Virus record (IMG/VR): IMGVR_UViG_3300037225_000072
Span: 1-25,180 of that record
Reading direction: 5' to 3' (one strand)
DNA length: 25,180 nt
Source: a virus
Every line of letters begins with the position of its first letter. Positions within the stretch are counted from its first letter, which is position 1. Of the stretch, positions 1 through 14,136 are shown piece after piece. Both the position numbers and the translations under genes were made by a program. The notes below the pieces were generated by a model. It did not search any database. It had not been told where the DNA came from and saw only the letters and a list, made by a program, of their open reading frames with translations.

Positions 1-20
1 GGACCCGGACCCGTCGAGAG

Positions 21-296
21 TTACTTCGAGGACAGCCATTTCTTCTCGTCCGTGTCGATGATGCTGATAACCGCTCGGCAGGGAATACGGGCAGTCCCCA
101 CGGGGTCCAGCTTCGTCTTGCTCGTAGGTCCGTTCAGGGCAAGCTCGCCGAGGCCGTTCGTCGTCCCCCAATATCGGATGTTTTTCGCATCCTCCACCGT
201 GGCGAACTCCCCGTCCCACGTCATCCTTCCGACGTAGACGAATCCACGGTCAGCGACCACGATGCAGTAGCCAGTGCGGATCGTTTTCGTTTCCAT
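21..296 (-). CDS. Small phage protein, 91 aa, of a family with a GPT motif (DUF6948-like); unknown function
   Basis: The product (METKTIRTGYCIVVADRGFV...) has a small beta-rich fold by appearance. It contains a block of the form IRYWGTTNGLGELALNGPTS followed by KTKLDPVG, which I have seen as a conserved pattern in small phage proteins; I believe it is the family called DUF6948, but cannot check. No catalytic residues, membrane segment or signal peptide are evident. The ATG at 296 lies five bases after AGGAGGTA. The gene has its own consensus promoter beyond the late-operon terminator, so it may be expressed early or in a way separate from the structural genes. A role in early takeover or as a moron gene is possible (inference). 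Confidence 0.65.
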   Translation of the reverse strand: METKTIRTGYCIVVADRGFVYVGRMTWDGEFATVEDAKNIRYWGTTNGLGELALNGPTSKTKLDPVGTARIPCRAVISIIDTDEKKWLSSK

Positions 297-300
297 TGGT

Positions 301-338
301 ACCTCCTAAGATAGAGAGATTATACCATATCAGGAGGT
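301..338 (-). promoter_or_regulatory. Anti-SD/SD inverted repeat enclosing the -10 box
   Basis: ACCTCCT (338-332, minus strand) is the exact complement of the SD AGGAGGT (307-301); pairing can extend to nine pairs with one G-U wobble. The -10 box of the promoter lies in the loop. Read-through RNA would contain both arms and could hide the SD, while RNA started at the local promoter would contain only the SD. Confidence 0.6.
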
Positions 339-347
339 TGATGTCAA
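319..347 (-). promoter_or_regulatory. Consensus sigma-70 promoter for the 91-aa gene
   Basis: TTGACA (347-342) and TATAAT (324-319) match the sigma-70 consensus exactly and are separated by exactly 17 bases. A TG precedes the -10 box (TGGTATAAT), and an A/T-rich palindrome (350-369) lies directly upstream and could act as an UP element or operator. The predicted start is near 312, about 16 bases before the ATG at 296. Confidence 0.9.
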
Positions 348-374
348 AAGAAAAATACGATTATTTTTCTACAT

Positions 375-416
375 AAAAAGGAAGGGGCGACCCGGGAGGT
401 AGCGCCGGATCACCCC
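375..416 (-). terminator. Intrinsic terminator after the lysis genes
   Basis: On the minus strand GGGGTG (416-411) pairs with CGCCCC (389-384), with one G-U wobble; inside, CCGG and CCGG can pair. A T-rich run (TTCCTTTTT, 383-375) follows. It lies about 60 bases after the stop of the spanin-like gene and upstream of the independent promoter at 319-347, so it would separate the late operon from the last gene. Confidence 0.55.
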
Positions 417-478
417 GAGGAACGCCCACATCACCGGGGAAGGTTACCCAGCGCCTGTGAACGTGGCGACCGAAGATT

Positions 479-1060
479 TTACTTCCAGGCGCCGAGCGAG
501 TGTCCAGTGATGTAGACCGCCTCCCCCGCCGCCAGTAGTCCAAGTCCGTAGAGTCCGATCCGTAGAATCCCATTCTGGAGCTCCAGTGCCTTCGCGTCAA
601 CCTGGGCCTTTGATAGCTTGGCTTCCAGCTCCGTCACCTGAGATTCCAATTTCACTTGCAGCGCGACTACTGAAGTCTGCGAGTCGGCCAATTGCTGCTT
701 CAGCTTCCGGATATCCTCCAAGAGCTGCTGTAAGTATGTCGTTGAGTCTCCCGAGTGCGCTGTCACGCTCGCCAGCAAGTCGTCGTATTTCTGCGTCGCG
801 TCCGCCAAGTTGTTTTCGATAATCTGCTTCTGCGCTAAGGCGTCCGTCAATGCTTGCTGTGATGCTTTGGACTGTGCCCTGATTATCGCCAAGTCGATCT
901 GCGATTGCGCGTAGTCCTGCGGCGTCAGCTTTTGCGTTGTCGATGACGAGCTGCTTGGCGTCGGCGAGTTGCTTGTTGAGGTCTGCGCCTGAACGAGCGG
1001 CGAAGTGCAGAGCAAGAGCACCGCACAGAACAGCGCCGAGGAGAAACGAGGGTATCGCAA
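479..1060 (-). CDS. Coiled-coil protein with signal peptide and C-terminal membrane span, u-spanin-like, 193 aa
   Basis: This frame encodes a signal peptide (RYPRFSSALFCAVLLLCTSP then LVQA), a Ser/Thr/Pro-rich linker, and a Gln/Leu/Lys coiled coil (residues ~50-160, LQQLLEDIRKLKQQLADSQT). A C-terminal membrane segment follows at ~163-186 (NGILRIGLYGLGLLAAGEAV). An outer N-terminus plus inner-membrane C-terminus is the topology of unimolecular spanins such as T1 gp11, which fuse inner and outer membranes. The Cys in LLLC is a poor lipobox (no Gly/Ala/Ser at -1), and VQA|Q fits signal peptidase I better. The only start is TTG at 1060, with no well-spaced SD, 16 bases after the upstream stop, so re-initiation is probable. 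Third positions are GC-rich and the last ~118 bases are unique to this frame, which argues it is real. Confidence 0.62.
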   Translation of the reverse strand: MRYPRFSSALFCAVLLLCTSPLVQAQTSTSNSPTPSSSSSTTQKLTPQDYAQSQIDLAIIRAQSKASQQALTDALAQKQIIENNLADATQKYDDLLASVTAHSGDSTTYLQQLLEDIRKLKQQLADSQTSVVALQVKLESQVTELEAKLSKAQVDAKALELQNGILRIGLYGLGLLAAGEAVYITGHSLGAWK

Positions 1061-1079
1061 CCTTCCACCAGCCTTTCAT
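597..1079 (-). CDS. Rz-like inner-membrane spanin candidate, 160 aa (overlaps the next gene)
   Basis: The ATG at 1079 overlaps the previous stop (ATGA), as for most genes here. The product has a single N-terminal membrane segment (residues 6-27, KVAIPSFLLGAVLCGALALHF) followed by a long charged helix (ADLNKQLADAKQLVIDNAKA and onward), the layout of an i-spanin (Rz), which links the inner membrane to the outer-membrane partner during lysis. Of its 483 bases, 464 are shared with the frame at 479-1060. By eye its third codon positions are less GC-rich than those of the other frame, and its C-terminal third is Gly/Ala/Arg-rich, so it may be partly or wholly spurious despite the good start. Confidence 0.45.
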   Translation of the reverse strand: MKGWWKVAIPSFLLGAVLCGALALHFAARSGADLNKQLADAKQLVIDNAKADAAGLRAIADRLGDNQGTVQSITASIDGRLSAEADYRKQLGGRDAEIRRLAGERDSALGRLNDILTAALGGYPEAEAAIGRLADFSSRAASEIGISGDGAGSQAIKGPG

Positions 1080-1276
1080 ACGGGGGGGTGCCTGTCCATT
1101 GATGTCAGTCCGAGAAGGGTCGTACCGGTGATGAACATCGTCATCGTGAGCGCGGAGTCATACCTCTTCTCGAAAAACCCGGCTAGGAATCCGAAGTACG
1201 ACACCAGCGCGGCACCGAGAAGCGCCGCCCCAAACATCGCCCTCTTTCCGTTGTGGTCACGGAAGAACTTCATCAT
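1076..1276 (-). CDS. Two-span membrane protein, 66 aa; holin-like
   Basis: The ATG at 1276 overlaps the previous stop (ATGA); a second ATG follows at once. The protein has a basic N-terminus (MMKFFRDHNGKR) and two membrane segments, 13-35 (AMFGAALLGAALVSYFGFLAGFF) and 41-60 (ALTMTMFITGTTLLGLTS), joined by a short charged turn (EKRYD). It ends in MDRHPPV. Its size and topology are those of class II holins, and it lies directly upstream of the spanin-like genes, overlapping the first of them by ATGA. With the 132-aa protein it could form a holin/antiholin pair. No sequence family is recognised. Confidence 0.6.
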   Translation of the reverse strand: MMKFFRDHNGKRAMFGAALLGAALVSYFGFLAGFFEKRYDSALTMTMFITGTTLLGLTSMDRHPPV

Positions 1277-1671
1277 GTCCGGGTTACCGCCGAGATCACC
1301 GCCAAAACCAGCGTGAGGACCCCGCAACCGAGAGCTCCCCAAGGATCCCCGATGATGAGCTGACGAATGCCGATCACGAACGAGGCGAGCGCAATCAGCC
1401 TCTTGCTGGAAAATTTGCTCCGGCCGTTCGCGTCCGCCGGGGAGTCGAGGAACTGGAAGAAGGTCATCAGCCACACCCACACGGCGCGGACCCCGTTCCA
1501 GAACTTCCCCAGGTCCTTCGCCACCGTCTTCTCCGCGCCGGAAGTCGCCGCCACGATGGGGCCGATGATGTCCTGCACGTCCTTGCCGATCAGCGCCGCC
1601 TCTGCCCTCGCCTTCTCCAGCACCGCGCGCCCTCCGGCTTCAAACTCGTCGTAGATTTCCTTCTCTGTCAT
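1273..1671 (-). CDS. Small membrane protein, 132 aa; holin-like or envelope protein
   Basis: The ATG at 1671 lies about eight bases after AGGAGGT. The first 55 residues are soluble and helical (EIYDEFEAGGRAVLEKARAE), then hydrophobic segments follow at about 60-75 (VRAVWVWLMTFFQFL), 90-107 (RLIALASFVIGIRQLII) and 111-130 (WGALGCGVLTLVLAVISAVT). A basic SKFSSKR stretch precedes the last pair, which form a likely hairpin in the membrane. The 'S-S-K-R-L-I-A-L-x-S-F' beginning of the membrane part is common in phage holin-like proteins. It overlaps the next gene by ATGA and heads the spanin operon, so a role in lysis is likely but inferred. Confidence 0.6.
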   Translation of the reverse strand: MTEKEIYDEFEAGGRAVLEKARAEAALIGKDVQDIIGPIVAATSGAEKTVAKDLGKFWNGVRAVWVWLMTFFQFLDSPADANGRSKFSSKRLIALASFVIGIRQLIIGDPWGALGCGVLTLVLAVISAVTRT

Positions 1672-1707
1672 GGGATGCTACCTCCTGAAGTGTTGAGATA
1701 CACGTCG

Positions 1708-1734
1708 AGGCGGGGACCCAAGAAATCCCCGCCT
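1708..1734 (-). terminator. Perfect 9-bp hairpin before the membrane-protein operon (no U tract)
   Basis: AGGCGGGGA (1734-1726 on the minus strand) pairs exactly with TCCCCGCCT (1716-1708), loop of nine bases. No U run follows on either strand, so it may be a weak terminator, an mRNA stabiliser or a processing site rather than an intrinsic terminator. It lies 36 bases before the ATG at 1671. Confidence 0.4.
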
Positions 1735-1739
1735 GACGG

Positions 1740-1919
1740 CTAGCCTTTCGGCTTCGGTGAAGTATCTAGTACTTCTTTCCGTGGCGCTTCCGGCGTTCGG
1801 CCATGAGCTTCATCTGGAACTCCTTTCTTGAAGGTGAGCGGCCTCGTAGCCACTCGCACGACCCTTGGTCGTGGCCCGTTGTGAATCGGCGGCAGATCAC
1901 CGTCGAGCCTTGAAATCAC
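1740..1919 (-). CDS. Possible small gene, 59 aa, unknown
   Basis: A GTG overlaps the previous stop (GTGA), the same coupling used by the gene after the portal. The frame encodes a basic, Pro-rich protein starting MISRLDGDLPPIHNGPRPRV and ending DTSPKPKG, and it stops just before the hairpin at 1708-1734. I do not recognise it. Two other readings of this DNA compete. One is a 44-codon frame from the GTG at 1897 to 1766 with an AAGG site seven bases upstream and more GC-rich third positions. The other is a 15-codon end of that frame that has its own strong SD. Only one is likely to matter. Confidence 0.4.
   Translation of the reverse strand: MISRLDGDLPPIHNGPRPRVVRVATRPLTFKKGVPDEAHGRTPEAPRKEVLDTSPKPKG
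1766..1813 (-). CDS. Possible 15-residue basic peptide with strong ribosome site (or end of a 44-aa frame)
   Basis: AAAGGAG lies six bases before the ATG at 1813, an excellent ribosome site, but the frame encodes only MKLMAERRKRHGKKY before TAG. The same frame is open upstream to a GTG at 1897, giving a 44-residue protein with two Cys and one His in its first half. It overlaps the 59-codon frame at 1740-1919. Whether the short or the 44-residue form is made cannot be decided by eye. Confidence 0.3.
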   Translation of the reverse strand: MKLMAERRKRHGKKY

Positions 1920-2224
1920 CAGACTCTCTTGTCCTGGGGACCGTGGTACTGCTCCACAGTGCCGCGGCCTCCGTCGATGGTTGTCTGCTGCCGGAAAGGC
2001 TGCTGTCGGACCATCTCCTTGTCCCTCTTCGCCTCGTCGAACCATTTCTGGTAGTGAAGCCCGCAGAGGAACATCGGTTTCCCGTATGCGTACGCGAAGT
2101 GAAGCCCATCCCGGCTTGAGCACTTCTCGCAGAAGGTCTTGGAGGACGGGTTGAAACGCCCGTCCCCCGGAACCTTCAAGGTCTGCAACCTGACGTGATT
2201 CCCGCCAGGAGTGAACCGAGGCAA
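1916..2224 (-). CDS. Small Cys/His-rich (zinc-ribbon-like) protein, paralogue of the one at 23773-23985
   Basis: The product has a TFCEKC pair and, 18 residues later, FLCGLHYQKW, giving the same C-x2-C...C-x2-H layout and flanking FNPSSKT and Trp as the 70-aa protein near the terminase. The annotated start is a TTG at 2224 three bases after the previous stop, with GAGGG upstream; a TTG 15 codons further in is also possible and would align the two paralogues better. The C-terminal third is Gln/Arg-rich and specific to this copy (VRQQPFRQQTTIDGGRG). Zinc binding is inferred from residue spacing. The function is unknown. It overlaps the next possible gene by GTGA. Confidence 0.62.
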   Translation of the reverse strand: MPRFTPGGNHVRLQTLKVPGDGRFNPSSKTFCEKCSSRDGLHFAYAYGKPMFLCGLHYQKWFDEAKRDKEMVRQQPFRQQTTIDGGRGTVEQYHGPQDKRVW

Positions 2225-2227
2225 GGG

Positions 2228-2896
2228 TTAGACCCTCGCCAGCTCGTAGGTCAGTTCCACCGCGTACAACGCCGTGGAGGTGGCCGCCTGCGTGGTCAGC
2301 GAGAGGGCCGCGTTCGGAGCAACGCCCATGTCGCCGTCGTACATGATGGAGAGCTGGATCTCCGCGATGACCGCCGCGACGGTTCCCGTGAACAGTGTGA
2401 TCCCGGCAGGGGACCAGAACACGGGGGCCGCGGTGTAGGTGTTGATCGCCGGCGCCCAGAAGGCGTTCACGGTGTCCGTGGCCGGAGTTCCACCCGCGAG
2501 GGCATTGACGATCGCGACCTTGGTGAAGGTGGCGATGGGTCCGCCCGTAGCGATTGCCGCACCAGCGCCCAGCGTCGAGCACCAGTACAGTGCACCGGGG
2601 GCGTCCGTTCCCGAGACACGGGCCAGCGTGAGCTGGGCGAACTCGGCATTGTAGATCCCTCCCGCGGGGACCCACAGCGTGGGATGGTTTCCCGTGGTGG
2701 CCGAGATGATGAGGGCGATGCCCGCCGTCAGCGTGGTGGCCTTGTACACGAGACCCCTCGAAAGGCCCTCGTAGTACTTGCCGTGCGATTCCTGCATGAC
2801 CATGGACGAATCACGGCTCGCCCTGATCCCGAAGTTGCCCTGGAAACCGTCGTTGACGATCGTGGGGCCTATGTTGCCCTGAAAACTGAAACCCAT
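2228..2896 (-). CDS. Beta-rich protein of unknown function, 222 aa; probably a virion protein
   Basis: The ATG at 2896 lies nine bases after AGGAGG. The protein begins MGFSFQGNIGPTIVNDGFQG and continues with YYEGLSRGLVYKATTLTAGI. It is then low in charge, rich in Ala/Gly/Thr/Val, with strands such as HPTLWVPAGGIYNAEFAQLT and GITLFTGTVAAVIAEIQLSI. There are no enzyme motifs, signal peptide or membrane spans. The style is that of phage capsid or tail surface proteins (head fibre or decoration), but I cannot assign it. Together with the gene at 2954-3403 it forms a unit with its own promoter, apart from the main structural block, so it may be an exchangeable surface module. Confidence 0.68.
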   Translation of the reverse strand: MGFSFQGNIGPTIVNDGFQGNFGIRASRDSSMVMQESHGKYYEGLSRGLVYKATTLTAGIALIISATTGNHPTLWVPAGGIYNAEFAQLTLARVSGTDAPGALYWCSTLGAGAAIATGGPIATFTKVAIVNALAGGTPATDTVNAFWAPAINTYTAAPVFWSPAGITLFTGTVAAVIAEIQLSIMYDGDMGVAPNAALSLTTQAATSTALYAVELTYELARV

Positions 2897-2911
2897 TTAG
2901 AGTTTCCTCCT

Positions 2912-2932
2912 GGGGGCTTGACCCCCGTCAAG
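2912..2932 (-). promoter_or_regulatory. Two mutually exclusive short hairpins just before a ribosome site
   Basis: On the minus strand CTTGAC (2932-2927) pairs with GTCAAG (2922-2917), while GGGGG (2926-2922) can instead pair with CCCCC (2916-2912). The second hairpin ends directly against the AGGAGG SD of the gene at 2228-2896. Only one of the two can form at a time. Confidence 0.35.
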
Positions 2933-2953
2933 ATACGACACCGGCAACGCCGG

Positions 2954-3403
2954 CTAGAAGCTGAACCCGCCCACGTTCACAGCCCCCTGGTTGGGAATGT
3001 CCAACCCGAGCTCCGAGAACATGATAATGAGCATCTGGAGCATCTGGGTGTTCGGGTCGGCCAAATTGACCAGACCGTCCACTTCGAGCTGCACCACCCC
3101 CCCCTGGCTCGCCGTGGCGAGGATCGTCTCACCGTTGACGAGGTTCCCCTGCAACAGGATCTGGACTACGGGAACGCTCGGCGAGATCCCGGCGAGGGCC
3201 GCGATGGTCCCGCTTGCGATCACGTTGTTCAGGGAGTCCTGAAAAATCGTGTAGTTCACGGGGATGTTGGCGGTGTTGGTCAGAAGGAACCCGTAGAGCT
3301 GGACACCCGTGGGGTTCGTCACGGAGTACATCTTGTACGGGTTGGGGCTGGAAGAGGCGGGAATCGCCTCAGAACCCAGAACTATCGTCCCTGAAATCGG
3401 CAT
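2954..3403 (-). CDS. Beta-rich protein of unknown function, 149 aa; probably structural
   Basis: I start it at the ATG at 3403, eight bases after GGAGGG; the upstream in-frame ATGs lie in the promoter. The protein begins MPISGTIVLGSEAIPASSSP and has alternating hydrophobic strands such as VQLYGFLLTNTANIPVNYTIF and GGVVQLEVDGLVNL, and a Met-rich helix (TQMLQMLIIMFSELGL). It ends in QGAVNVGGFSF. There is no signal peptide; the composition (Gly, Ser, Thr, Val, Asn, few charges) is that of a virion surface or decoration protein. I know no family for it. It is followed after 57 bases by another beta-rich protein of similar type, and the two may act together. Confidence 0.65.
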   Translation of the reverse strand: MPISGTIVLGSEAIPASSSPNPYKMYSVTNPTGVQLYGFLLTNTANIPVNYTIFQDSLNNVIASGTIAALAGISPSVPVVQILLQGNLVNGETILATASQGGVVQLEVDGLVNLADPNTQMLQMLIIMFSELGLDIPNQGAVNVGGFSF

Positions 3404-3423
3404 TCTCGTGCCCTCCTGCATAC

Positions 3424-3451
3424 AAAGTATCATGCCGGTGGGGCCTGTCAA
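3424..3451 (-). promoter_or_regulatory. Sigma-70-type promoter for the 149-aa gene
   Basis: A perfect -35 TTGACA (3451-3446) is followed after 16 bases by TACTTT (3429-3424), which is preceded by TGA, giving an extended but weak -10 box. The predicted start is close to 3417, and the ATG of the next gene is at 3403 with GGAGGG in between. The AT-rich region upstream could supply regulator sites. Confidence 0.5.
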
Positions 3452-3502
3452 CGCCGTTTCTTTACGTCAGTCTGTGTGTATCAGAAAGACCCATAGTGAG
3501 TT

Positions 3503-3538
3503 GTTTTGTCCATCACGACCTAAGTTTTGTCCATCACG
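3503..3538. repeat. Two 15-bp direct repeats, 21-bp period
   Basis: GTTTTGTCCATCACG occurs at 3503-3517 and again at 3524-3538, exactly two helical turns apart. On the minus strand the unit is CGTGATGGACAAAAC. The spacing would place bound proteins on the same DNA face, so an operator or activator site is possible. The second copy overlaps the stop of the 22-codon ORF. Confidence 0.8.
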
Positions 3539-3602
3539 TAAAAATCCATGCCACGATGAAGAACGCGGCGTAGAGCAAAAGGAACATCACGAAGTACTTC
3601 AT
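3534..3602 (-). CDS. Possible 22-residue membrane peptide
   Basis: The ATG at 3602 opens a 22-codon frame ending at TGA (3534-3536). The product is a single hydrophobic helix with a basic start (MKYFVMFLLLYAAFFIVAWI, then FT). It has no SD sequence, but an extended -10 box lies seven bases upstream, so a leaderless mRNA is possible. Small single-span peptides occur in phage lysis and superinfection-control loci, and it lies between the lysis pair and the next operon. The frame is short enough to arise by chance, so confidence is low. Confidence 0.33.
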   Translation of the reverse strand: MKYFVMFLLLYAAFFIVAWIFT

Positions 3603-3608
3603 ACGTTG

Positions 3609-3617
3609 ATTGTACCA
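3609..3617 (-). promoter_or_regulatory. Extended -10 box upstream of the 22-codon ORF
   Basis: The minus strand reads TGGTACAAT, one base from the TGGTATAAT of the two other promoters. No convincing -35 box is present. The ATG of the tiny ORF begins seven bases after the box, so a transcript from here would start at or next to the ATG. Confidence 0.42.
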
Positions 3618-3815
3618 CAAAAAATCACTACCCATCATAAGAATATTTATATATTCTGTGCATACTTATACATGGATATCCATACAATCCGCGCATACAT
3701 ATTTCATATTGACACACACTTCAACCTGTGCCCGAATCTAGTAGCCAGCACTCCTACAACTCCAACCAAGATACCGCTCAGGGCGCGCGGGCGCTCAGAG
3801 GTTTACAGGGATAGC

Positions 3816-4274
3816 TTAGACAATCTTGACGATTACCTTCTCCACGAGAGTCCAGAACTTCGACATGATATCGGGCCGGTTCATGGAGTCCCACGCTACA
3901 TTCTGTTCGACGCTGGTGAACGGACGGCCGTCGCCAACTACGAAGTGAAACCCGCCGATGTTTGACAGTGACCCCTTCAGGATCTCCTTCTCGTCGTCCT
4001 CGCACTGGTAGGATGCGCCTGCGATTCTGGAGAACTGGAGAGGGTACTTCACCACGGTCTCGCTGGAGGGCAGGCAGGCGAGGAAGCGCGACCAGGATCG
4101 TATCGTGCAGTCGGGGTCGAGGATCTTCTGCGTAATGAGGGAGGCCACGAGCTCGTTGACCATCTCCGGGGTGTACTCGTCGGGCAACAGGTAGATTCCG
4201 TCGAGGACCGCGCAGGCGTACTTCTCTTCGGTCATCGTCAGCAGAGGGTCGGTCTGCCACCATCCCGAAATCAT
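3816..4274 (-). CDS. Probable C39-like (papain-fold) cysteine peptidase; endolysin candidate, 152 aa
   Basis: The pattern suggests a bacterial or phage C39-like domain. An N-terminal WWQTDPLL stretch (compare 'Q-x-D-P-x-W') is followed by EKYACAVLDGIYLL with a possible nucleophile Cys21, in the position of the 'Y-G-C-x-x-T-S' motif. Near the end are GGFHFVVGDG with a possible catalytic His110 and NVAWDSMN with Asp129, matching 'H-F-V-x-V-x-G ... x-D-P/S'. Cys-His-Asp in this order and spacing fits papain-like peptidases used as endolysins or peptidoglycan endopeptidases. The ATGA overlap with a holin-like membrane gene supports lysis. No other endolysin is visible in the window. The call is tentative, as the motifs are degenerate and the residues between are not conserved by eye. 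Confidence 0.5.
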   Translation of the reverse strand: MISGWWQTDPLLTMTEEKYACAVLDGIYLLPDEYTPEMVNELVASLITQKILDPDCTIRSWSRFLACLPSSETVVKYPLQFSRIAGASYQCEDDEKEILKGSLSNIGGFHFVVGDGRPFTSVEQNVAWDSMNRPDIMSKFWTLVEKVIVKIV

Positions 4275-4609
4275 TCGTCATCCTCTTTGAACAGATCAGC
4301 AAGGTTGTCGGGGCGTGCCAGCGCCGCCCTCCGCAGGAACTCGTCGGTCCTCTCCTGATCTGTGAGGACGGCCTTCACCGCCTCGTCGGCCTCACCGTTG
4401 GTCGAACCGTTCTTCAGGGCGACGGCGATCTTCTGGAGCGCCACCCCCTGGTACTTGTTGGACCGAAGGATCCGGTAGAGCGCCGCGGTGATGATGATGA
4501 CCTGCTTCGGGACATCGAGAAACTTCCTCCCGAACGCCATGAGCGCCGTGATGCCCACCACGGCAAGGCTGCTGATTACGATGCTGATGATCTCATGCCA
4601 GTCTGCCAC
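4271..4609 (-). CDS. Small membrane protein with one N-terminal span, holin-like, 112 aa
   Basis: The start is GTG at 4609, four bases after GGAGG. Residues 6-26 (EIISIVISSLAVVGITALMAF) form a membrane segment followed at once by basic residues (GRKF), then a second weakly hydrophobic stretch (KQVIIITAALYRIL) and a charged, soluble C-terminal half ending in acidic residues (LFKEDDE). The size, the topology and the ATGA overlap with a probable peptidoglycan-cleaving enzyme are typical of a holin-endolysin cassette. Holins are too diverse to call by sequence alone, so this is inferred from context. Two other small membrane proteins at 1076-1671 are competing holin candidates. Confidence 0.6.
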   Translation of the reverse strand: MADWHEIISIVISSLAVVGITALMAFGRKFLDVPKQVIIITAALYRILRSNKYQGVALQKIAVALKNGSTNGEADEAVKAVLTDQERTDEFLRRAALARPDNLADLFKEDDE

Positions 4610-4618
4610 GTTGCCTCC

Positions 4619-4972
4619 CTATCCTTTGACCTGCGCCCTCAGCGCCTGCCATGCCGCTATCGGGTCATCTTTCGGCACCACGCCTTTTCCAGCCGTTCCT
4701 TGCGCTTGAGCGATGAGTGCGTCTATCACGTCCGGCACCAGAGCCGCTAGCTGAATCTGCGCCGCGACAACCGGGTCCAGAGGGACGGGCTCCGGAGTAA
4801 CGTACGGATCGGCCTTGTTCCCCGCCGCCAGCCAGTCCTTAATGCTCTGCAACAGAGGGGAAAACTCGCGGTCTGTCGTAACGTTGTACTGCGGATAGTT
4901 AGGGTTCGACACCGCTACCACGTAGGAGCCATCGAGCATCAGGAGTACCGGCTGTGTGAAGTCTACGGTCAT
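4619..4972 (-). CDS. Small protein downstream of the fibre-like gene, 117 aa; possible fibre-associated protein
   Basis: The ATG at 4972 overlaps the stop of the beta-propeller gene (ATGA), so I use it rather than the ATG at 4999. The protein has an N-terminal beta-hairpin-like part (VLLMLDGSYVVAVSNPNYPQ), then DREFSPLLQSIKDWLAAGNK, a Pro-rich linker (ADPYVTPEPVPLDPV) and a helical Ala/Gln-rich end. The 'I-x-x-W-L-A-A-G-N' plus Pro-rich linker pattern is frequent in small phage proteins encoded next to tail fibres. Tight coupling to the fibre-like gene suggests a fibre assembly or tip role, but I cannot name a family. No membrane segment or signal is present. Confidence 0.65.
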   Translation of the reverse strand: MTVDFTQPVLLMLDGSYVVAVSNPNYPQYNVTTDREFSPLLQSIKDWLAAGNKADPYVTPEPVPLDPVVAAQIQLAALVPDVIDALIAQAQGTAGKGVVPKDDPIAAWQALRAQVKG

Positions 4973-6477
4973 GCGATTCTCCAGGCCCATCCATTCCATA
5001 CTTGGTTAGCCGCTGCGGCTCCGATAGTATTTCCCCCGGCATCGAATCCTCCGTATTGTCCGGACGAGACCCCCGTTACAGCGGAAAATCTCTGGATAAA
5101 TGAAATCCATGTTCCCCCAGCGTTGAGCGTTACAGAGGCAACGGACAAGTATGTAACGTACTGCCCCACCCCCGCCGCCGTCTGGGGAAGGGGGGCGGCG
5201 ATGGAGTCGGAAATCTCGTTCCACCCCGCGGTGGCGATGGAGCCGGCAACTCCCACTGCTACTATGTTGCCGGTGCCGGGGGTCGTCTGGGGGGAGGAGG
5301 CGATGGAGTAGATGGCGTTGGCACCGAATGGGTTGGTTACTAGACCTCCCCACGTGAGACCGTTGTCGTAGGACCGTGCTGTGGCTCCAGTACCGGCGCC
5401 GGCCTGGAATATCCCAAAATTGTAACTCATGGAATATATCTGCTGTCCGCCGAGTGGATTCGTTATTAGGGAACCCCATGTCACTCCCAAGTCTACAGAA
5501 CGTGCGATTGTTGCACTTTGACTTCCAGCAACAAATACTCCGTTTCCAAAAGCCATTCCTAGAATGTTAGTGGCTCCCCCAAAGGGGTTAGCAATCAAAG
5601 AACCCCACGTAAGACCAAGGTCTGTTGACCTAGCAATTTTCCCACCATCAGCTACGACAACAAAAACACCAGATCCGAAAGAACAATTATGGATAATGGA
5701 ACCACCAAAGGGATTCACTATAAATGCTGACCACGTGACACCTAGATCTAGAGATCGTGATATGTTTCCTCCATCGCTCACCGCAACGAAAACTCCGTCC
5801 CCGTATGCTATTGAGTAGATTTGTTCTCCACCACCAAACGGATTCGCAATAAGGGCGCTCCACGTTACCCCGTAATCAGTAGAACGGCATATCTCACCGA
5901 GAGAAGCGGTGGCGACGAAAACACCATTTCCGTATGCAATAGAAAAGATGCCTGCACCACCAAATGAGTTGGCTATCAACCCACTCCATGTTGCCCCGAA
6001 ATCAGTTGATCTTGCTATCTTCCCTCCCCCTACGGTTACAGCAACAAAAACCCCATTTCCAAAAGCAATACCGCGGATGTCACGTCCTGCGAAGCTATTC
6101 GCTATCAGCCCGCTCCACGCCTCCCCGAGGGATTGGTAGACGTGCCCGCGAACGTACACGTCCCCCGGGAACCCCGTGGTGTTGATCTGGGAAAGGGAGG
6201 ACGCCAGAGCGTCGATCTGCGCAAACCTCCCCTTGTTCAACTCCCCGTTGACGATGAGGTTGCCATCGACCGTCAGGTCGGTTCGCCCACCGTTGAAAAT
6301 CTTGATCTGGTTACCCATCGAGACCTGCCACGTTTCCCCGTGATCCAAAGAGCGTGCAATGCTCCCACCAGCCCCGACCGCAACCATCACGCCCCTTCTC
6401 GGGTGTGACAGGCTGGAGTCCGGCATTGTGCATGAGGCCAAGACCAGTGTGAGAATCAACCCTGCGAGAATCTTCAT
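4969..6477 (-). CDS. Asp-box beta-propeller protein with lipoprotein signal and fibre-like ends, 502 aa
   Basis: The first residues MKILAGLILTLVLASC form a lipoprotein signal with a good lipobox (LASC, Cys16); residue +2 is Thr, which would favour outer-membrane sorting. Seven Asp-box motifs (S-x-D-x-G-x-T-W) occur, at residues 43-50 and then about every 42-43 residues from 157 to 376, in repeats such as ARSTDFGATWSGLIANSFGG. This predicts a sialidase-like beta-propeller; no sialidase catalytic Arg/Tyr set is evident, so it probably binds rather than cuts. Residues 55-120 (DLTVDGNLIVNGEL) and the C-terminus (GGTWISFIQRF...NGWAWRIA) look like tail-fibre pieces. The gene lies at the T7 fibre position. 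A TAGGAGGT site seven bases before the ATG supports this start. By eye the propeller DNA (about 5400-6110) is AT-richer than its flanks, which suggests acquisition. It may be the receptor-binding fibre or a surface-displayed exclusion lipoprotein. Confidence 0.75.
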   Translation of the reverse strand: MKILAGLILTLVLASCTMPDSSLSHPRRGVMVAVGAGGSIARSLDHGETWQVSMGNQIKIFNGGRTDLTVDGNLIVNGELNKGRFAQIDALASSLSQINTTGFPGDVYVRGHVYQSLGEAWSGLIANSFAGRDIRGIAFGNGVFVAVTVGGGKIARSTDFGATWSGLIANSFGGAGIFSIAYGNGVFVATASLGEICRSTDYGVTWSALIANPFGGGEQIYSIAYGDGVFVAVSDGGNISRSLDLGVTWSAFIVNPFGGSIIHNCSFGSGVFVVVADGGKIARSTDLGLTWGSLIANPFGGATNILGMAFGNGVFVAGSQSATIARSVDLGVTWGSLITNPLGGQQIYSMSYNFGIFQAGAGTGATARSYDNGLTWGGLVTNPFGANAIYSIASSPQTTPGTGNIVAVGVAGSIATAGWNEISDSIAAPLPQTAAGVGQYVTYLSVASVTLNAGGTWISFIQRFSAVTGVSSGQYGGFDAGGNTIGAAAANQVWNGWAWRIA

Positions 6478-6487
6478 TCCGTGTACC

Positions 6488-6534
6488 TCCTACGGTAGAG
6501 ATATTATACCACACTTTATTCCTCCCCCGTAGGA
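6488..6534 (-). promoter_or_regulatory. Inverted repeat pairing the ribosome site of the beta-propeller gene, with the promoter in its loop
   Basis: On the minus strand TCCTACGG (6534-6527) is the exact complement of CCGTAGGA (6495-6488), which contains part of the SD TAGGAGGT. The -10 box of the local promoter lies between the arms. RNA reading through from the gp16-like gene contains both arms and can fold over the SD; RNA starting at the local promoter (predicted near 6496) lacks the first arm. Confidence 0.55.
6503..6511 (-). promoter_or_regulatory. Extended -10 sigma-70-type promoter for the beta-propeller gene
   Basis: The minus strand reads TGGTATAAT (6511-6503): a consensus -10 box with the TGn extension. 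No good -35 box lies 16-18 bases upstream (TACGGG at best), as is usual for extended -10 promoters. The same TGGTATAAT occurs at 319-327. The predicted start is about 19 bases before the ATG at 6477. Confidence 0.68.
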
Positions 6535-9500
6535 TTTTTTTTGGCGAGTATCGCCTGGGCGTAGTCGGAGATGCTTCTATAGGACACGCCCGCCGTTAGG
6601 CTGAGGATCATGTCGGGCAAGGAAGTCAGAAGATCGTTCCGAGCCTTCATCCCCTTCTTCGTCCCCGCCCCGTTCTTCGCCCACTGGTAGGTGTCGTACC
6701 CCAGCCTCTTTGCCACCCCCAGGTACTGGTCGAGGAAAAAGCTGGAGCTGTCAGCGGCCGGGGAGAAAGGCCCGTTCTCCACCATCGCCATGCCGGACCG
6801 AACGGCCCCGCCGATCCCCGGAAGGCCCCCCACCGCCTGAAACACCATCTCGTCAGTCCACTTCGGCTCCTTCTTCCGGTGGAGCAACTGCGCCTGCAAT
6901 GCACGGATGCCCCAGATCACGGTGGGCTCTGCAAGGCCGAGAACGAGCCCCGTCCGGATCATCTTCCTCCACCCGCCCGGGGTGTACTTCATGTCCATGA
7001 ACTTCCTGCGCATCGCGCCGAGGGCCGCGTGGAACTCGCTCTGGAAGACGGCGAGCTGCGACGTGTAGACATCCTTGTTCATCAAAGACTGGACCTCGGG
7101 GAAGTTGGATGCGTGCGTTCGTACGACCGAGTACGTGCTGAATCGTGATGCGGTGCTCGGCAGAGATTCAGCGGGGAGGGCCTTCAACTGCTCGTCGGTC
7201 AAAAGGTTCCCCTTCTCGTCAGCCATCGCCCGGGCTACGTCCGGATCGAAGTCACGGAGGGACGCCACCTTCCCGTTCCTCAGTGCCTTCAGTCCCCGCA
7301 TCGCGTGATGCCATGCCTGATTCATCTCCGATGCAATCGCCCACTGCGTTGCCTTCTGGACGGGCTTGGCCCCCACCTTCCCCGCCTTCTCCATCACCTT
7401 CGACGACACGTTCATCGCGTAGATTTCCGACTGCTCCCGCGTGAACCCCCGGGCAACACCCTGCGCATAGTAGGGGTTGATCTCCTTCATCCTCCCATGA
7501 ACCATCCCCGGCCTGATCGTGTTCTCCACGATCCCCACCAGACCATCACGGAGACCTGCATAGATCATCCCGCGGAACTGCAACGATGCGTTGATAGCGG
7601 CGGTCGTCGGTCTAAGGAAAAGAATGGCGGTCTTCCCCTTGCGCGAAAGGTCGGACACCAGCTTCTGCCCGGCCGTGTAGGGCTCCCGCATCCCCGCGAA
7701 GTCCTTCAGGTTGCGGTCCATGATCTGGTACATCCGTTTCCCGTGCGGCGCCGCCTCCAATGCCGCCTTGTACTTCGGGCTGTAGAGAACCCTCCCCGCC
7801 ATTCGGGTGTGCGCCTCTTTCGTCACGTACGTCGAAACGTTGTCCAGGTGCTTCACCAGAGAGTCGATGTCTATCCCAAGGACGATCGGACCCGTGTACC
7901 CCGTCCTCTCCTTCATGTGCCCCTTGTCCACCCCCGCACGGGTGAACCTCTGGTTGTAGTCGTGCAGGGCGATGTCGAACTCCGCTTTCGGACCCCGCGT
8001 CCCCGGGATCCTCGTCACCCCGCGGTACAGGTCCTCCAGCCGAAGGTGGCGCTTGTTCAACTCGTAGTGCGTGGCATCCACCGCCTGCCCGGCCTTCTTG
8101 TAGACCTCATCCTCGACGGCTATCCATTCCTTGTCCAAGGCCCCCATCTGGGAAAGGATCTTCTGGATGTCCCCCCTCCTCCGATCCAGAAGGTCCTCCG
8201 GGGTCATGTTCTTGTCCTCGGCCTGCACGTGCGACGGGTCCTTGCTGTATCTGAAGGAGTATCCCGCCTCCAGATTCTTCTTGTTGTACGGGTGTCGGTT
8301 CTGCCCGAACATCTCGTGCATCGTCCCGCGCATCACCACCGCGCTCCGGCCGTCCCCCAGGTCGACGCTGATCTTCTCGTGCCACCATCCCCAATCCAGC
8401 TTGTTCTTCTTCATGAAGTCGGAGATGGGCTGCATCCGCTCTGAAAGGTCACGCAGGTAGTTTTCCTCGATGCGAAGCAGCTTGCCGCTCATCAGGTCGT
8501 AGCCCACGGAGTCCTGATTCCCCTTGAACCACGCCTGTATCGCAAGGTCAGGGTCGTCGATAAGCTGCCAGAAAAACTCCTGCACGCCCATCCCCGCCTT
8601 CTTCGCGGCCTCGGCGAGTGTCGGCTGGTCCCTCTGGATCTGGTCGTCGACCTCCGCGGGAACCCGTGCCTCGTTCTTCAGGATCTCCGCGGCGGCCTCC
8701 ACAGTCTTCTGACCCGTGCGAAGCTCGATCCTCCTCTCCTCGTTGTCCAGAGCCTCGTACATCTTCAGAAGGTCGTGAACGTCCTGCAATTCCCCTAGCG
8801 TCAACTGCCGCAAATTCTTGCTCGTCAGGTCCGCGAACCTCTTCCGGTCCTGCGCGTCCATCGGGAACCACTTGTCTTTCTCCAACGTCGAGGCGATCTG
8901 GTCCAGAGCATCGCCCAGCGGCTCGGTCCCCGTCCTCATGTTGCGGACCTTGTTGATGATGTCCTCTGCCGGCAGACGGTACTCGTCCCGCATGTTGCTG
9001 GGGTTGATGTCGAGAATCCCGCGTTCCAACTGACTGCGGAGCTCCACCGCGGCCCGCCTCTGGTCCCGCGCGCTGAACCGATCCTGAACCGCCGCGGCCT
9101 TCGCCTTCCCCTCGTCCACCGCACGGTTCACGGCCCCCTTCATCTGGGCGACCTTCTCGTTGTACTTCAGCTTCAGTACAGCCTCGCGTGCCGCGGCTTT
9201 CTCCCGGGTAGCCTTCAAAGCCTGCCGCAGTTTCTCCAGACGGATGTTGCTCTCGATCTTCCCCTTCGCAACGGCGACCTTCCCTTTTTCTTTCTCCGCG
9301 GCGATTCGGTCCTGAAGGGTCTTGATCTCCCCCTGCGCCCGCTCGTAGCCGGGGTCGTGGGTGAGGATGTCCTTGAACTCCTCAGCCGTTACAGGTTCGC
9401 GTTGGGAGGCAGGATCTCCTTCAGCCGTTCTGACAGGCGCTTCCTGTGCTTTGGCTTCAGGTACAGGCTGTCTTTCAACGCTCTTTTCAGGTTGCGCTGC

Positions 9501-12401
9501 TCGCGCTTCTTCTCTCGGCTTTTCACGTACTACCTCCTCCGGTGTCGGCGCCCGCACTACGGCCGGCGCAAGTTTCGCTCTCGATCTCGCCTCGTCCATC
9601 AGCGGCGGGTCATTCCACGGGCTCGCCCACCGAAGGATCTCATCGTCCAGCTCCGCGATGCGGGCCTTGATCTCTTCCTTCGTCCCCGCGGTCTTCCAGC
9701 CCAGCTCGTCCAGTACCTTCCGCGCGTTCTCCTTCGACAAGCTCATGGCCTTCGACAGCGCCCCCCGGGTGGCCGACAACTCGTGTTGCCTCTCGGTGAC
9801 AGCCGCTTCCAGCTTGTCCGCCTCTACCATCATGGGCTCGTCGTCTCCCCAAAGAACGCCCTGCCCTACCTTTCCCGATTCCCGCTCGGTGTACTTGATC
9901 GCGTTGATGTAGTTGACAAGCTCATCCGCCCCGAGAGTCTTTGCCCTACCGATCGCCTTGCGCTGCATCGCAGCGTCCAGTGGGGCAGCCGATGCTATGG
10001 CCGCTGCTTTTTCCGCCGTGATTCTATCGTTTCGATAGAGGGTATAGAGATCATCTTCAGCCCAAGTACCAATGGCGAAACCTTCGCGTGCCCTGGCTGA
10101 TCCCAGAAGTCCTTGGTCGAAGGCTTGCTGTTCTGTGAGTCCGAGTCTTTTGTGAACTCTGGCATAGTCTTTTACGCTCCCACGTCCATCCTGAATGTTG
10201 CTCTTCGCATCGAGGAAGTGCATGTCCTCCGGTGTCCATCCGTCCGCCTCACGGTAGATCTGCGCAGGAATCGTTTTCTCTCCGATCCTTCCCGCGAACT
10301 CCTTGCGATGCCTACCGGTGGCAACCTCTCTCCATCCGTCGAGAAACTGGTATTCGATAATGGGCCGCACAGGGTCTTTGTCGTAGACCTTCCCCTCTAT
10401 CTTGTCCTTCTCGTTGATGCCCTGCTCGTTCACCCCTTCCTTCATGTTCGGAAGTCGTTCCTGGACGTGCAGCCCTTCCAGCGGTACTTCAACAACCGCC
10501 CTGTCAGAGGGGTGCTCGGCCATATCCGACCGCGGGGGGTCCTTCGGGGTAGCCGATGGGGCGATCTCCTGTATCTGGACCTCCGCGGCCGTACGGGGAA
10601 CGTCAGGGTTGGATTGAGCCGCGTCCTCGAACATCCTCATCTGCTGGGCTTCGTCAGCCATCTCGGCCGGGGTCTTGTCCGCGAACCCGAACGCCCCCTG
10701 AACGACCTCGGGAGGCTTCGCGTGTTGGAGCTCCTCCAGGGGTTGCTCCAACTGGAAGTCCGGAGCGTCCCCCTCGCGCATGGTGTCCCCGACGTTCTGG
10801 TCCTCGGGCTTGTCGGAGGCGAACCACTGAAGGTCCACGTTGTCGAGTTGGGTCCTGAAGTCGGAAAGGTCGGTTCGGATTCGACGCTGGATCTCCGGAT
10901 CCTTCTCGATGGAAAGGCGGGCTTTCAGGTCGTTGACCCTGGCCTCCAACTCATGACGGCGAGGGTTGTCCTTCAGGATCTGGTCCCTGACCTTCACTTC
11001 CTCGGGTGTCCGGGGGTTCCACTGGACCTTCTCTCCGACGTGATCCCTCATGAAGTTGATGACAGCCTCTCGGGTGTCCGGTGCCGTCACCTTCTCGATC
11101 GTTGCACCGTTCGCCCCGTAGTTTGCCTCGATGCGGTCCCCGGGGCGCTCCGGGTGGGTGTAGGTGTACTTGAACCCGTTCTCGTCTGCCTGCGTCACGA
11201 TGCGGCGCGCCTGCGGTGCCTCGGGTGCTGCCGCCGCCTCGGGGGTCCTTGCAAGGTCCTCCTCGATCTGGTGAGATACCAGACCGTGTGAATCGAGAAG
11301 GCCGAGCCCCACCAGCGGAGCTCCGGTTAGGCCTCCCACCGCCGCCGACAATCCGAGTTGAGTCATCCACTCCTGAACCGTGGCCTTCGGGACGTTCTGC
11401 TCGTTGGTGAGGATCTTCCCCATCTCTATTCCCAGCATGTTCGCGCTGGATGCCGCGGCCGAGAAAAGGCTCATTCCAACAGTCCCCGCCGCGAAGGCCG
11501 CCGCCTTCCCGGATAGACCGATCTCCATCGCCGCTTTGATGAGGGCCCTCTCGACGATCGTTCCTCCCTGCTTCACGCCGGGGATCTCCCCGATGAGGGC
11601 CTTCTCGACGATCGTTCCTCCCTGCTTCACGCCGGGGATCTCCCCGATCTTCAGGAAGTTGAGTGCCGTCATCACCGCTCCCATACCCAGGGAAACGCCG
11701 CGGGCAACGGTAGGGTCTACCCCTTTCCCGTTCTCGTCCCTCCAATCCATCATGGCGTCGAACTGGCTGGACACCACGCTATCGAATTGCTCACGGATGG
11801 GAACGGACGCCCCGGCCAACCCACCAGCCGCCATCCCCACGGGGCCGAGAAGGAATCCTCCCATTGCGGCGCCCACCTGCGCCCCCACCATCCCCTCGAT
11901 GCCCTTCCCTAACTGGATGCCGAGATCGACCAGTGACGACATCACCTGCTTGGGGAACTCCTTGATCGTCTGATCCGCGGGGTGCAATTTCTCCTTGAGG
12001 GCCTTGATCCGTTCAACCGTCGAATCGTCCCCCTTGAGGTACCGTTCCGTGGAGAGCTGGTTGATCTGCCGGCGCGTACTCCAGTCCTCCGCCGTGTTCT
12101 TCAGCCTCTCCCAGAACGTGGTGGGCTTCACTTCCCCGCCGTACATCTTCTGACGGATCTGGTCGTGGTTCCCCCAGATCGTGGAAACGTCAAGGCCAAG
12201 CCTCGGTGCAAGGAACTGCGAACTATCCAGCTTCGCCGCGTCCTCCACGGGATTGTCCGAGTGTTGCATGATGAGCTGGCGGGCCTTCTGCTGGCGGGCC
12301 TCCACGTCGTCCGGTGTAGGGTTCTGGCCGGGATCCGGAGACGGTGCTCCCCAACTCGTCGTGCTCTGGTCGAGAAGAGTCTGGAGTCCGGGATCCGGCA
12401 T
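6516..12401 (-). CDS. Giant internal virion protein D-like ejection protein (T7 gp16 position) with ParB-like domain
   Basis: At 1961 aa this is much larger than T7 gp16 (1318 aa). I start it at the ATG at 12401, which overlaps the previous stop (TAATG). Regions seen: a charged N-terminus; a Gly/Ala-rich hydrophobic stretch at about 164-200 that could enter membrane; an 18-residue tandem repeat at 252-287; and a ParB/Srx-like segment at about 634-825 (VPLEGLHVQERLPN, then FLDGWREVATGRHRKEFAGR and RGSVKDYARVHKRLGLTEQQ). These are followed by a SAP-like motif near 880-927 (ARKVLDELGWKTAGTKEEIK), a Lys/Ala/Glu coiled coil at about 1012-1130, and a C-terminal part with hydrophobic segments near 1810-1836. 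I find no lytic transglycosylase motif at the N-terminus, unlike T7 gp16. The layout is like phage 'polyvalent' proteins. It is probably ejected with the DNA and could act on host DNA or DNA entry (inference). Confidence 0.8.
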   Translation of the reverse strand: MPDPGLQTLLDQSTTSWGAPSPDPGQNPTPDDVEARQQKARQLIMQHSDNPVEDAAKLDSSQFLAPRLGLDVSTIWGNHDQIRQKMYGGEVKPTTFWERLKNTAEDWSTRRQINQLSTERYLKGDDSTVERIKALKEKLHPADQTIKEFPKQVMSSLVDLGIQLGKGIEGMVGAQVGAAMGGFLLGPVGMAAGGLAGASVPIREQFDSVVSSQFDAMMDWRDENGKGVDPTVARGVSLGMGAVMTALNFLKIGEIPGVKQGGTIVEKALIGEIPGVKQGGTIVERALIKAAMEIGLSGKAAAFAAGTVGMSLFSAAASSANMLGIEMGKILTNEQNVPKATVQEWMTQLGLSAAVGGLTGAPLVGLGLLDSHGLVSHQIEEDLARTPEAAAAPEAPQARRIVTQADENGFKYTYTHPERPGDRIEANYGANGATIEKVTAPDTREAVINFMRDHVGEKVQWNPRTPEEVKVRDQILKDNPRRHELEARVNDLKARLSIEKDPEIQRRIRTDLSDFRTQLDNVDLQWFASDKPEDQNVGDTMREGDAPDFQLEQPLEELQHAKPPEVVQGAFGFADKTPAEMADEAQQMRMFEDAAQSNPDVPRTAAEVQIQEIAPSATPKDPPRSDMAEHPSDRAVVEVPLEGLHVQERLPNMKEGVNEQGINEKDKIEGKVYDKDPVRPIIEYQFLDGWREVATGRHRKEFAGRIGEKTIPAQIYREADGWTPEDMHFLDAKSNIQDGRGSVKDYARVHKRLGLTEQQAFDQGLLGSARAREGFAIGTWAEDDLYTLYRNDRITAEKAAAIASAAPLDAAMQRKAIGRAKTLGADELVNYINAIKYTERESGKVGQGVLWGDDEPMMVEADKLEAAVTERQHELSATRGALSKAMSLSKENARKVLDELGWKTAGTKEEIKARIAELDDEILRWASPWNDPPLMDEARSRAKLAPAVVRAPTPEEVVREKPREEARAAQPEKSVERQPVPEAKAQEAPVRTAEGDPASQREPVTAEEFKDILTHDPGYERAQGEIKTLQDRIAAEKEKGKVAVAKGKIESNIRLEKLRQALKATREKAAAREAVLKLKYNEKVAQMKGAVNRAVDEGKAKAAAVQDRFSARDQRRAAVELRSQLERGILDINPSNMRDEYRLPAEDIINKVRNMRTGTEPLGDALDQIASTLEKDKWFPMDAQDRKRFADLTSKNLRQLTLGELQDVHDLLKMYEALDNEERRIELRTGQKTVEAAAEILKNEARVPAEVDDQIQRDQPTLAEAAKKAGMGVQEFFWQLIDDPDLAIQAWFKGNQDSVGYDLMSGKLLRIEENYLRDLSERMQPISDFMKKNKLDWGWWHEKISVDLGDGRSAVVMRGTMHEMFGQNRHPYNKKNLEAGYSFRYSKDPSHVQAEDKNMTPEDLLDRRRGDIQKILSQMGALDKEWIAVEDEVYKKAGQAVDATHYELNKRHLRLEDLYRGVTRIPGTRGPKAEFDIALHDYNQRFTRAGVDKGHMKERTGYTGPIVLGIDIDSLVKHLDNVSTYVTKEAHTRMAGRVLYSPKYKAALEAAPHGKRMYQIMDRNLKDFAGMREPYTAGQKLVSDLSRKGKTAILFLRPTTAAINASLQFRGMIYAGLRDGLVGIVENTIRPGMVHGRMKEINPYYAQGVARGFTREQSEIYAMNVSSKVMEKAGKVGAKPVQKATQWAIASEMNQAWHHAMRGLKALRNGKVASLRDFDPDVARAMADEKGNLLTDEQLKALPAESLPSTASRFSTYSVVRTHASNFPEVQSLMNKDVYTSQLAVFQSEFHAALGAMRRKFMDMKYTPGGWRKMIRTGLVLGLAEPTVIWGIRALQAQLLHRKKEPKWTDEMVFQAVGGLPGIGGAVRSGMAMVENGPFSPAADSSSFFLDQYLGVAKRLGYDTYQWAKNGAGTKKGMKARNDLLTSLPDMILSLTAGVSYRSISDYAQAILAKKNPTGEE
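11538..11645 (-). repeat. Two 54-bp direct tandem repeats inside the gp16-like gene
   Basis: Bases 11538-11591 and 11592-11645 match at 53 of 54 positions. The unit is in frame and encodes 18 residues (GEIPGVKQGGTIVEKALI), repeated with one Lys/Arg difference. The near-identity at DNA level indicates a recent duplication. Confidence 0.93.
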
Positions 12402-14134
12402 TACTGGTGCTCCTGCCAGTTTTTCGGATCGTCGGGGTGGGTTGCGAACTGCCACATGACGCGGCCCTGCTTTGAATCGAAGAAGGGCCTCCAGTACAGC
12501 CCATCCGTCGTTGCGATGATGGGGATCGCCTTCGTCAGACGCGACTTCCTCGGATCCACCGAAACCCCACGGGTCATCTTGGAGAACACGTTGTAGTCGA
12601 AGTCCTTTATGGCGAGGGTCTGGAGTTTCGCTATCGTCGAGCGTGCCTTACTGTCAGACGGCGCAACGTCGTCCAACTCCCCGGCCTGTGCCGCGGTCAT
12701 CGCTTTCGCAAGGTTCTGGTACGGGGAGTCCTGACCGAGAAGGAATGCCGCGTTGCCCTTCGATTTGTAGTCGAACTCCGAGAGCGCCGTGTCGAGAATC
12801 GGGTCCATGACCCACTTCTTGATCTGCTTCCTCGCGTCGTCGATCTCCTGACCGTTAGGGTCCCGTCCCTTGTTGTCGGTCTTGTACTTCTTCTTCCACT
12901 CGTCGAGGGCGATGACGGCCTTCCCCCCGGCGTCAGGAATGTCCTTCAGATCCTTCTGGAGACTGCTCGCCGCCGTCGATATGTTGGGGTCTGTTGCCTG
13001 CGTGGTGAGCTGGAGGAGACGAGCCTGATTCTCCCATGTGATCGACCCGGCCCGAATGTCCGGTGTCGCGTACTGCTCGTAGCCCTTCACACCGGCCGCC
13101 GCGTTCACGATGTTCATGTAGTTCTGCCGTGACAGAGGATCGGTCCCCTTGATCTGGTATCCCATCGCAATGAGCTTCCCCATCGTGGAATCCTCGGACG
13201 CCGACTTCTTCCCCCCGCGGCCTCCCTGCTTCACGTACGACTCCAGGTTCGCAAGCCACGACCGTTTCAACTGCGCCCCCTCCTGGCGCCTGAAGTCACC
13301 TCCGTCAATTGCCTTCTTCATCTGGTCGAGGCTGATGTCCTTCTCGCCGATGAGGAAGTCGCTCCACATGTCGGCCAGTTTGATATCGGTGTCCCCGTTG
13401 ATCTTGTCGTCCTCTTTCTTCTGGCGGGCCTCCGCGTAGTCCCTCTGGCGCTCCATCGTCGTTGTGAATGCGTCCACCTGCCCCGGTGACTTCAACTCCG
13501 AATACTGCCCCGCGATCTCGGGGATCTTCGCAATGGCCGCGTCCCACCCGTTCGCCCGGGCTTCCTCCCTGATCTTTCTGCTTGCCTCGGCCGTCTGCAT
13601 GTAGGCTTTCGACTGCTCTCCCGTGGTGAACGCCGCGGTGGGGTCGATTACAGAAGTGTCGGATGCTGCCTTCAGGTCTGCGTCGTTTGCCGATGCTGCT
13701 TCCGCTGCGGTAATCGTCCCCGCCTCAACGTCCTTCTCGCGCTGGTCAATCCTTTTCACCAGATCGGCGTGGTATATTTTGATGCGCACGTTGTTGGAGA
13801 TATTCCCTATCGCCCCGAGGTGAGCGTCCCTCATCTGCTGCCAAGTCTGCTGAAGCTCGTTCTTCGCTCCCTGGTGCTTGGTGGCCTGATCGACCTGCTG
13901 CCAAAGCTCGTTCTCTTTCTGGGCCGCGAGCTCGGGGTACTTCCTCCAGTCGGGGTTCTGATCCAATGAAAGGTCGAACTGCGTCAGCCCGCGGCGAAGG
14001 GTCTCCACGCCGTTGTTGTACTCGCTTGCCTTCTCTGCATCGTCGAGCTTCCCCGCGACGGTGAAAAATAAATTGGCGACCGAGTTTCCGAGATCCCCTA
14101 CTGCTGCCGGGGAGGGCCTGAATGCGTCAGCCAT
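12401..14134 (-). CDS. Internal virion protein C-like (T7 gp15-like ejection protein)
   Basis: The 577-aa product (T7 gp15 has 747) is a long, mostly helical, highly charged soluble protein without signal peptide, as expected for the middle component of the ejected trans-envelope channel. It starts MADAFRPSPAAVGDLGNSVA, continues with FDLSLDQNPDWRKYPELAAQKENELWQQ, and contains many amphipathic helices, for example WQQMRDAHLGAIGNISNNVR. The true start is the ATG at 14134, two bases after the previous stop; the 50 residues further upstream are an out-of-frame Arg/His/Gln run. The stop overlaps the next start (TAATG). No catalytic motif is visible. The identification is by position, size and composition. 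Confidence 0.75.
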   Translation of the reverse strand: MADAFRPSPAAVGDLGNSVANLFFTVAGKLDDAEKASEYNNGVETLRRGLTQFDLSLDQNPDWRKYPELAAQKENELWQQVDQATKHQGAKNELQQTWQQMRDAHLGAIGNISNNVRIKIYHADLVKRIDQREKDVEAGTITAAEAASANDADLKAASDTSVIDPTAAFTTGEQSKAYMQTAEASRKIREEARANGWDAAIAKIPEIAGQYSELKSPGQVDAFTTTMERQRDYAEARQKKEDDKINGDTDIKLADMWSDFLIGEKDISLDQMKKAIDGGDFRRQEGAQLKRSWLANLESYVKQGGRGGKKSASEDSTMGKLIAMGYQIKGTDPLSRQNYMNIVNAAAGVKGYEQYATPDIRAGSITWENQARLLQLTTQATDPNISTAASSLQKDLKDIPDAGGKAVIALDEWKKKYKTDNKGRDPNGQEIDDARKQIKKWVMDPILDTALSEFDYKSKGNAAFLLGQDSPYQNLAKAMTAAQAGELDDVAPSDSKARSTIAKLQTLAIKDFDYNVFSKMTRGVSVDPRKSRLTKAIPIIATTDGLYWRPFFDSKQGRVMWQFATHPDDPKNWQEHQ

Positions 14135-14136
14135 TT

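Follow-up and report, generated by a model that had tools for sequence, protein, structure and literature searches.

Genes that stand downstream of active ones in crowded genomes are transcribed regardless of need, and the locus described here raises the question of how translation of such a gene might be made to depend on the origin of its transcript. The window, by which we mean the whole stretch of DNA that was analysed, is a 25,180-base virus fragment whose other end seems, by inspection, to lie in a terminase gene; because the record is partial, the early genes and any phage RNA polymerase are unseen. A gene for a 91-aa protein follows a run of late structural genes and is codirectional with them, with a terminator-like hairpin between. 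A sequence-only reading of this DNA had claimed that a TTGACA-17-TATAAT promoter ahead of the 91-aa gene carries in its spacer ACCTCCT, the exact complement of the downstream SD, and we find all of these elements on the minus strand, in the following arrangement.

342..347, minus strand: −35 hexamer TTGACA (sequence and consensus promoter scan).
319..324, minus strand: −10 hexamer TATAAT with TGG in front, an extended −10 of the TGn kind (sequence and promoter scan).
Between 342 and 324, minus strand: promoter spacer of 17 nt, TCAACCTCCTGATATGG.
332..338, minus strand: anti-SD ACCTCCT inside the promoter spacer, the 5′ arm of the hairpin (folding and sequence).
301..307, minus strand: SD AGGAGGT, the 3′ arm of the hairpin (folding and sequence).
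348..370, minus strand: A/T-rich tract directly upstream of the −35, a possible UP element (sequence).
312, minus strand: predicted transcription start, an A 7 nt past TATAAT (promoter geometry).
296-294, minus strand: ATG of the 91-aa gene.
21..296, minus strand: 91-aa ORF with a weak DUF6948 match (profile match below the curated cut-off).
375..416, minus strand: terminator-like element, a GC-rich stem (about 416-384) and then UUCCUUUUU (folding).
479..1060, minus strand: a 193-aa ORF, the last in the run of late genes, ending 132 nt upstream of the −35.

The anti-SD and SD arms flank the −10 hexamer, and pairing of the 5′ arm continues past ACCTCCT through positions 331-330 (G-U and A-U) in the predicted fold. 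An in-frame TAG overlaps the SD, so that the ATG at 296 is the first possible start. A consensus scan returns the TTGACA-17-TATAAT site as the sole 12/12 promoter match within bases 1-20000, and ACCTCCT occurs only once on the minus strand of the whole window. The A/T-rich tract upstream of the −35 also forms a weak hairpin on folding.

We find that minus-strand RNA from 400 to 250 is predicted to form a 9-bp helix (one G-U pair), followed by a 1x1 mismatch and then 4 more bp, in which the SD is buried; the isolated hairpin (345-285) has a predicted stability of −15.6 kcal/mol, and 6 of 200 shuffles are equally stable. The mean unpaired probability of the SD is predicted to be ~0.01 or less in long or read-through RNA (0.0015), compared with 0.66-0.80 in promoter-derived RNA (0.75), and the difference expected between the 400-250 RNA and RNA from 312 is borne out in these folds, the SD being almost fully paired in the first and mostly free in the second. 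As in masking of the T4 type, the SD is predicted to be paired in the long transcript, and the promoter is so placed that its own transcript, from the predicted start at 312, carries neither the 5′ arm, which lies upstream of that start (338-332), nor the CTCTCT tract.

A further element, absent from the sequence-only reading and missed by a simple consensus scan, precedes the promoter: the terminator-like stem reads GGGGUGAUCCGG...CCGGGUCGCCCC, then UUCCUUUUU, and the fold of 418-372 is predicted at −24.1 kcal/mol, with a z of −4.4. To judge from its sequence, this hairpin would remove most read-through before masking matters, and in this sense it apparently lessens the need for masking. The claim that the SD is masked in upstream-derived transcripts is supported by folding and by the extended pairing with which the layout recurs independently, as described below, but its reach is narrowed by the terminator-like hairpin, which would take most read-through first. 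Because a strong terminator-like hairpin precedes the promoter, masking would be a second lock, acting on RNA that escapes termination.

At the end of the late gene run, two long minus-strand ORFs, 479-1060 and 597-1079, share more than 460 nt in different frames. By eye, both look membrane-linked and coiled-coil, and they stand in an Rz/Rz1-like place at the late-gene end. GC3 is 0.73 for 479-1060 and 0.44 for 597-1079, compared with 0.77-0.85 in clear genes, and on these grounds ORF 597-1079 may be spurious.

We consider it probable that the DNA from the end of the last late gene to the 91-aa gene forms an insulated unit of expression, in which the gene's own promoter gives a free SD and read-through is either terminated or masked. 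A strong sigma70-type promoter would start a short-leader mRNA at about 312 with its SD free, polymerase arriving from the late genes would first meet the GC-rich terminator-like hairpin (416-375), and in residual read-through RNA ACCTCCT would pair with the SD and block 30S binding. The 91-aa protein would then appear while its own promoter is at work, either early in infection or in a lysogen, and late read-through would yield none; in proposing this we infer promoter and terminator activity, the start site, masking in the cell and timing. That the 91-aa gene is translated only from its own promoter, as the sequence-only reading held, is what this mechanism predicts. A promoter inside an SD-masking hairpin makes translation depend on transcript origin, with no protein needed and within about 50 bases.

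The same layout could also be a coincidence, in which ACCTCCT lies by accident in the spacer of a strong promoter that serves a good SD and insulation comes from the upstream terminator alone, a reading that we regard as unlikely while granting it appreciable weight. The strong terminator-like hairpin already present speaks for it, as does the post hoc choice of the site after reading of the whole 25 kb. When the 60 nt upstream are shuffled with dinucleotides preserved, only 7 of 2000 shuffles contain ACCTCCT, which argues against coincidence; the SD is masked equally well in 2.75% of these shuffles, and when foreign phage promoter regions are put upstream of the 91-aa leader, none of the 90 masks the SD as well. 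Pairing past the hexamer core amounts here to only 3 bp, an extension that 20% of mismatched pairs reach and that is therefore within chance, in favour of coincidence. Taken by itself, the feature is suggestive: it is unusual, though not overwhelming, given that it was chosen from 25 kb. The intergenic stretch yields no DNA match of substance, bases 1-8000 of the window have no DNA match in named phages, and an Rfam search gave no match. No homologue of the site was found, so that conservation or covariation of its arms lends masking no support here.

The argument is carried further by other genomes. Viral contigs were scanned for CCTCCT-TATAAT-AGGAGG, with at least 120 matches, and many loci among the matches listed combine a correctly spaced TTGACA with a gene downstream of the SD. 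After dereplication, and again among the matches listed, 8 of the 72 promoters whose spacer carries CCTCCT have AGGAGG plus a start codon behind them, compared with 1 of 66 that carry the control CCTTCC, a difference that is only modestly significant (Fisher p 0.035); with 8 found against about 1 expected from the control hexamer, the co-occurrence of anti-SD and SD is mostly above chance, which counts against coincidence. Pairing beyond the six core bases is unselected by the search, and its baseline was obtained by permuting arms between different loci. Among the matches listed, 21 phage loci have both a good −35 and a gene; they show 4.19 extra bp compared with 1.57 when permuted, a value reached in 0 of 20000 permutations, and those listed matches that lack both a gene and a −35 extend by 1.64 bp, compared with 1.40 permuted. 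GTDB genomes searched with the geometry of the window (anti-SD 4 nt after the −35) give 11 matches, all 11 with a start codon and an ORF, and the extension there is 6.75 bp, compared with 1.89 bp (p 0.00025, n = 8). We observe, beside the sequence layout and predicted folds of the window, a recurrence with extended pairing in unrelated phages and in bacterial genes. Whether phage promoters generally tend to mask their own SD was examined, and such a tendency is rejected, as 90 unselected promoters with an SD give 0.498 versus 0.498, and this lack of a trend is a point for coincidence. The nested-promoter layout is a recurrent but small minority class, and most promoters lack such masking.

The gene upstream stops, in many class members, between a few and about 36 nt short of the −35, and read-through is therefore expected there. 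A shared function of the downstream genes was looked for across the class and not found; they include genes for a CHAP endolysin, a helicase, a primase, a phosphoesterase, a SprT-like protein and a SAM decarboxylase. A U-rich tract comes after the 3′ arm in many members (a mean of 4.3 T in 8, compared with 2.6 in non-gene matches), a richness that also reflects AT-rich genomes. In members with the U tract, the hairpin looks, from its sequence, like the terminator of the upstream gene, its 5′ arm and loop holding the promoter and its 3′ arm being the SD; the window is a simpler form, its terminator-like element being separate from the SD hairpin. It is possible, although we hold it at somewhat short of an even chance, that the anti-SD/SD-hairpin promoter is a widespread means of insulating genes in phages and bacteria and has evolved repeatedly; often it would be joined to an intrinsic terminator, a single short sequence then serving as upstream terminator, promoter and ribosome site, with the window as the separate-terminator form. 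If common beyond T4, such promoters would change the annotation of phage promoters and ribosome sites and would offer compact insulators for synthetic circuits.

The class also bears on the possibility that the inverted repeat is a DNA operator, bound on both arms around the −10 by a dimeric repressor, for example in lysogeny. Operators commonly take the form of an inverted repeat spanning a promoter, and the placement of the arms on either side of the −10 fits this. We find this reading improbable, however, as one arm is exactly the SD at the proper distance from the ATG, and as the spacing from TATAAT to AGGAGG in the class varies from 8 to 26 nt, which is unusual for a dimer site. The over-representation of G-U pairs at the first non-Watson-Crick position (29%, compared with 20% expected, p 0.03) also favours pairing in RNA over a DNA operator. 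Least probable, and very much so, is that the hairpin is mainly a terminator part or an RNA-processing site for read-through RNA rather than translational: the U-rich tract after AGGAGG in many class members speaks for it, but in the window the 3′ arm is followed by UACCAAUG, with no U tract, and the terminator-like element is separate and upstream.

Among individual members of the class, those of Megasphaera (L487, L488, L491, L493, L494-L498) have an exonuclease-like gene preceded by an inverted repeat of up to 18 bp. The repeat holds the promoter, the SD and a U tract and is kept across genomes; five Megasphaera orthologues keep both arms, with a loop that varies and with A-to-G changes on the spacer side that leave G-U pairs. 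A Desulfarculales bacterium (L485:6192-6237) carries a 20-bp palindrome with TATAAT, in which the SD is part of the 3′ arm and which is present as a single copy in the genome; the ORF that follows is transposase-like, an identity that Pfam did not confirm.

Two families of related stretches were also seen. A conserved CCTCCT-TATAAT-AGGAGG stretch with a weak −35 stands before varied small genes (L052, L056, L062, L064, L073, L093, L118, L125 and L131), with two related copies in L052, and is found in 29 named Streptococcus phages as well. A repeated promoter-like stretch lies before different genes in L038, L077, L084 and L085, and by eye its arms change together, CCTCCTGCC/GGCAGGAGG in L038 versus CCTCCTGTC/GACAGGAGG in L077, a compensatory change.

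The DUF6948 score of the 91-aa protein, 25.1 bits, lies below the curated cut-off of 27, which places it outside formal membership, and no paper on DUF6948 was found in the literature searched. Homologues exist at 36-74% identity; those examined (L002-L012) lie in other contexts, where the nested-promoter layout was not found. In two named phages, the neighbours of the homologue are a repressor or regulator, an Erf-type gene and small genes, which suggests that the 91-aa gene is early-type.

The phage had been taken to be T7-like, and we find no support for this in the partial record beyond a shared connector family (the portal/connector matches PF12236). The capsid protein matches Pfam GP7 (E 3e-41), with best phage hits of the epsilon15/phiV10 type and similar (HU1, CP2 and phiV10 at about 23-26% identity), and the phage is a non-T4 podovirus. 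One near relative, L482, was found via the portal (71%), and its contig ends before the promoter region; single-protein scans with the 1979-aa protein and with the capsid found no relative. The 1979-aa protein (6516-12455, minus strand) is located where an internal virion protein would be expected, and over residues 652-971, a region that looks ParB-like by eye, it matches phage proteins with a DNA methylase annotation.

Among known systems, read-through RNA in IS10 and IS50 folds over the ribosome site of the transposase, and the RNA of the inner promoter does not. The likeness is in protection from outside transcription by start-dependent folding; the repeat there belongs to the end of the element, whereas the window shows no evident mobile element. 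Cluster K mycobacteriophages have inverted repeats (ESAS) beside an SD-containing start-associated sequence (SAS), but these are 17-bp repeats upstream of the SAS in which the SD is not an arm (PMC3203893), unlike the SD of the 91-aa gene, which is one.

The closest parallel is in T4 e, soc, 49 and I-TevI (and also segB and Aeh1 mobE), where a promoter overlaps the 5′ strand of an SD-hiding hairpin, such that long transcripts are silent and promoter-derived transcripts lack the 5′ strand (PMC3014915, PMC2988022). For gene e, SD masking in read-through transcripts lowers lysozyme about 100-fold, and T4 late promoters inside the 5′ strand yield translatable RNA (PMC3014915); the earlier comparison of our site with gene e was correct (PMC3014915, PMC2988022). 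What the two share is the nested promoter and the SD-hiding hairpin, which is here predicted. They differ in that T4 late promoters hold back a late gene on early transcripts, whereas here the promoter has a sigma70 consensus and the upstream genes are late, and in that the window has a terminator-like hairpin before the promoter and belongs to a non-T4 podovirus. A gp55-dependent T4 late promoter was considered for the site and rejected, as the site has a consensus −35 and −10; it may work like T4 gene e, yet it is no T4 late-promoter case. No description of a sigma70 version of nested-promoter masking was found in the literature searched, which does not prove its absence. The principle is known from T4, and new here are the consensus sigma70-type promoter, the reversed order of late and own transcription, the added terminator-like hairpin and the recurrence as a class; that the arrangement works in this way at the present site is what we infer.
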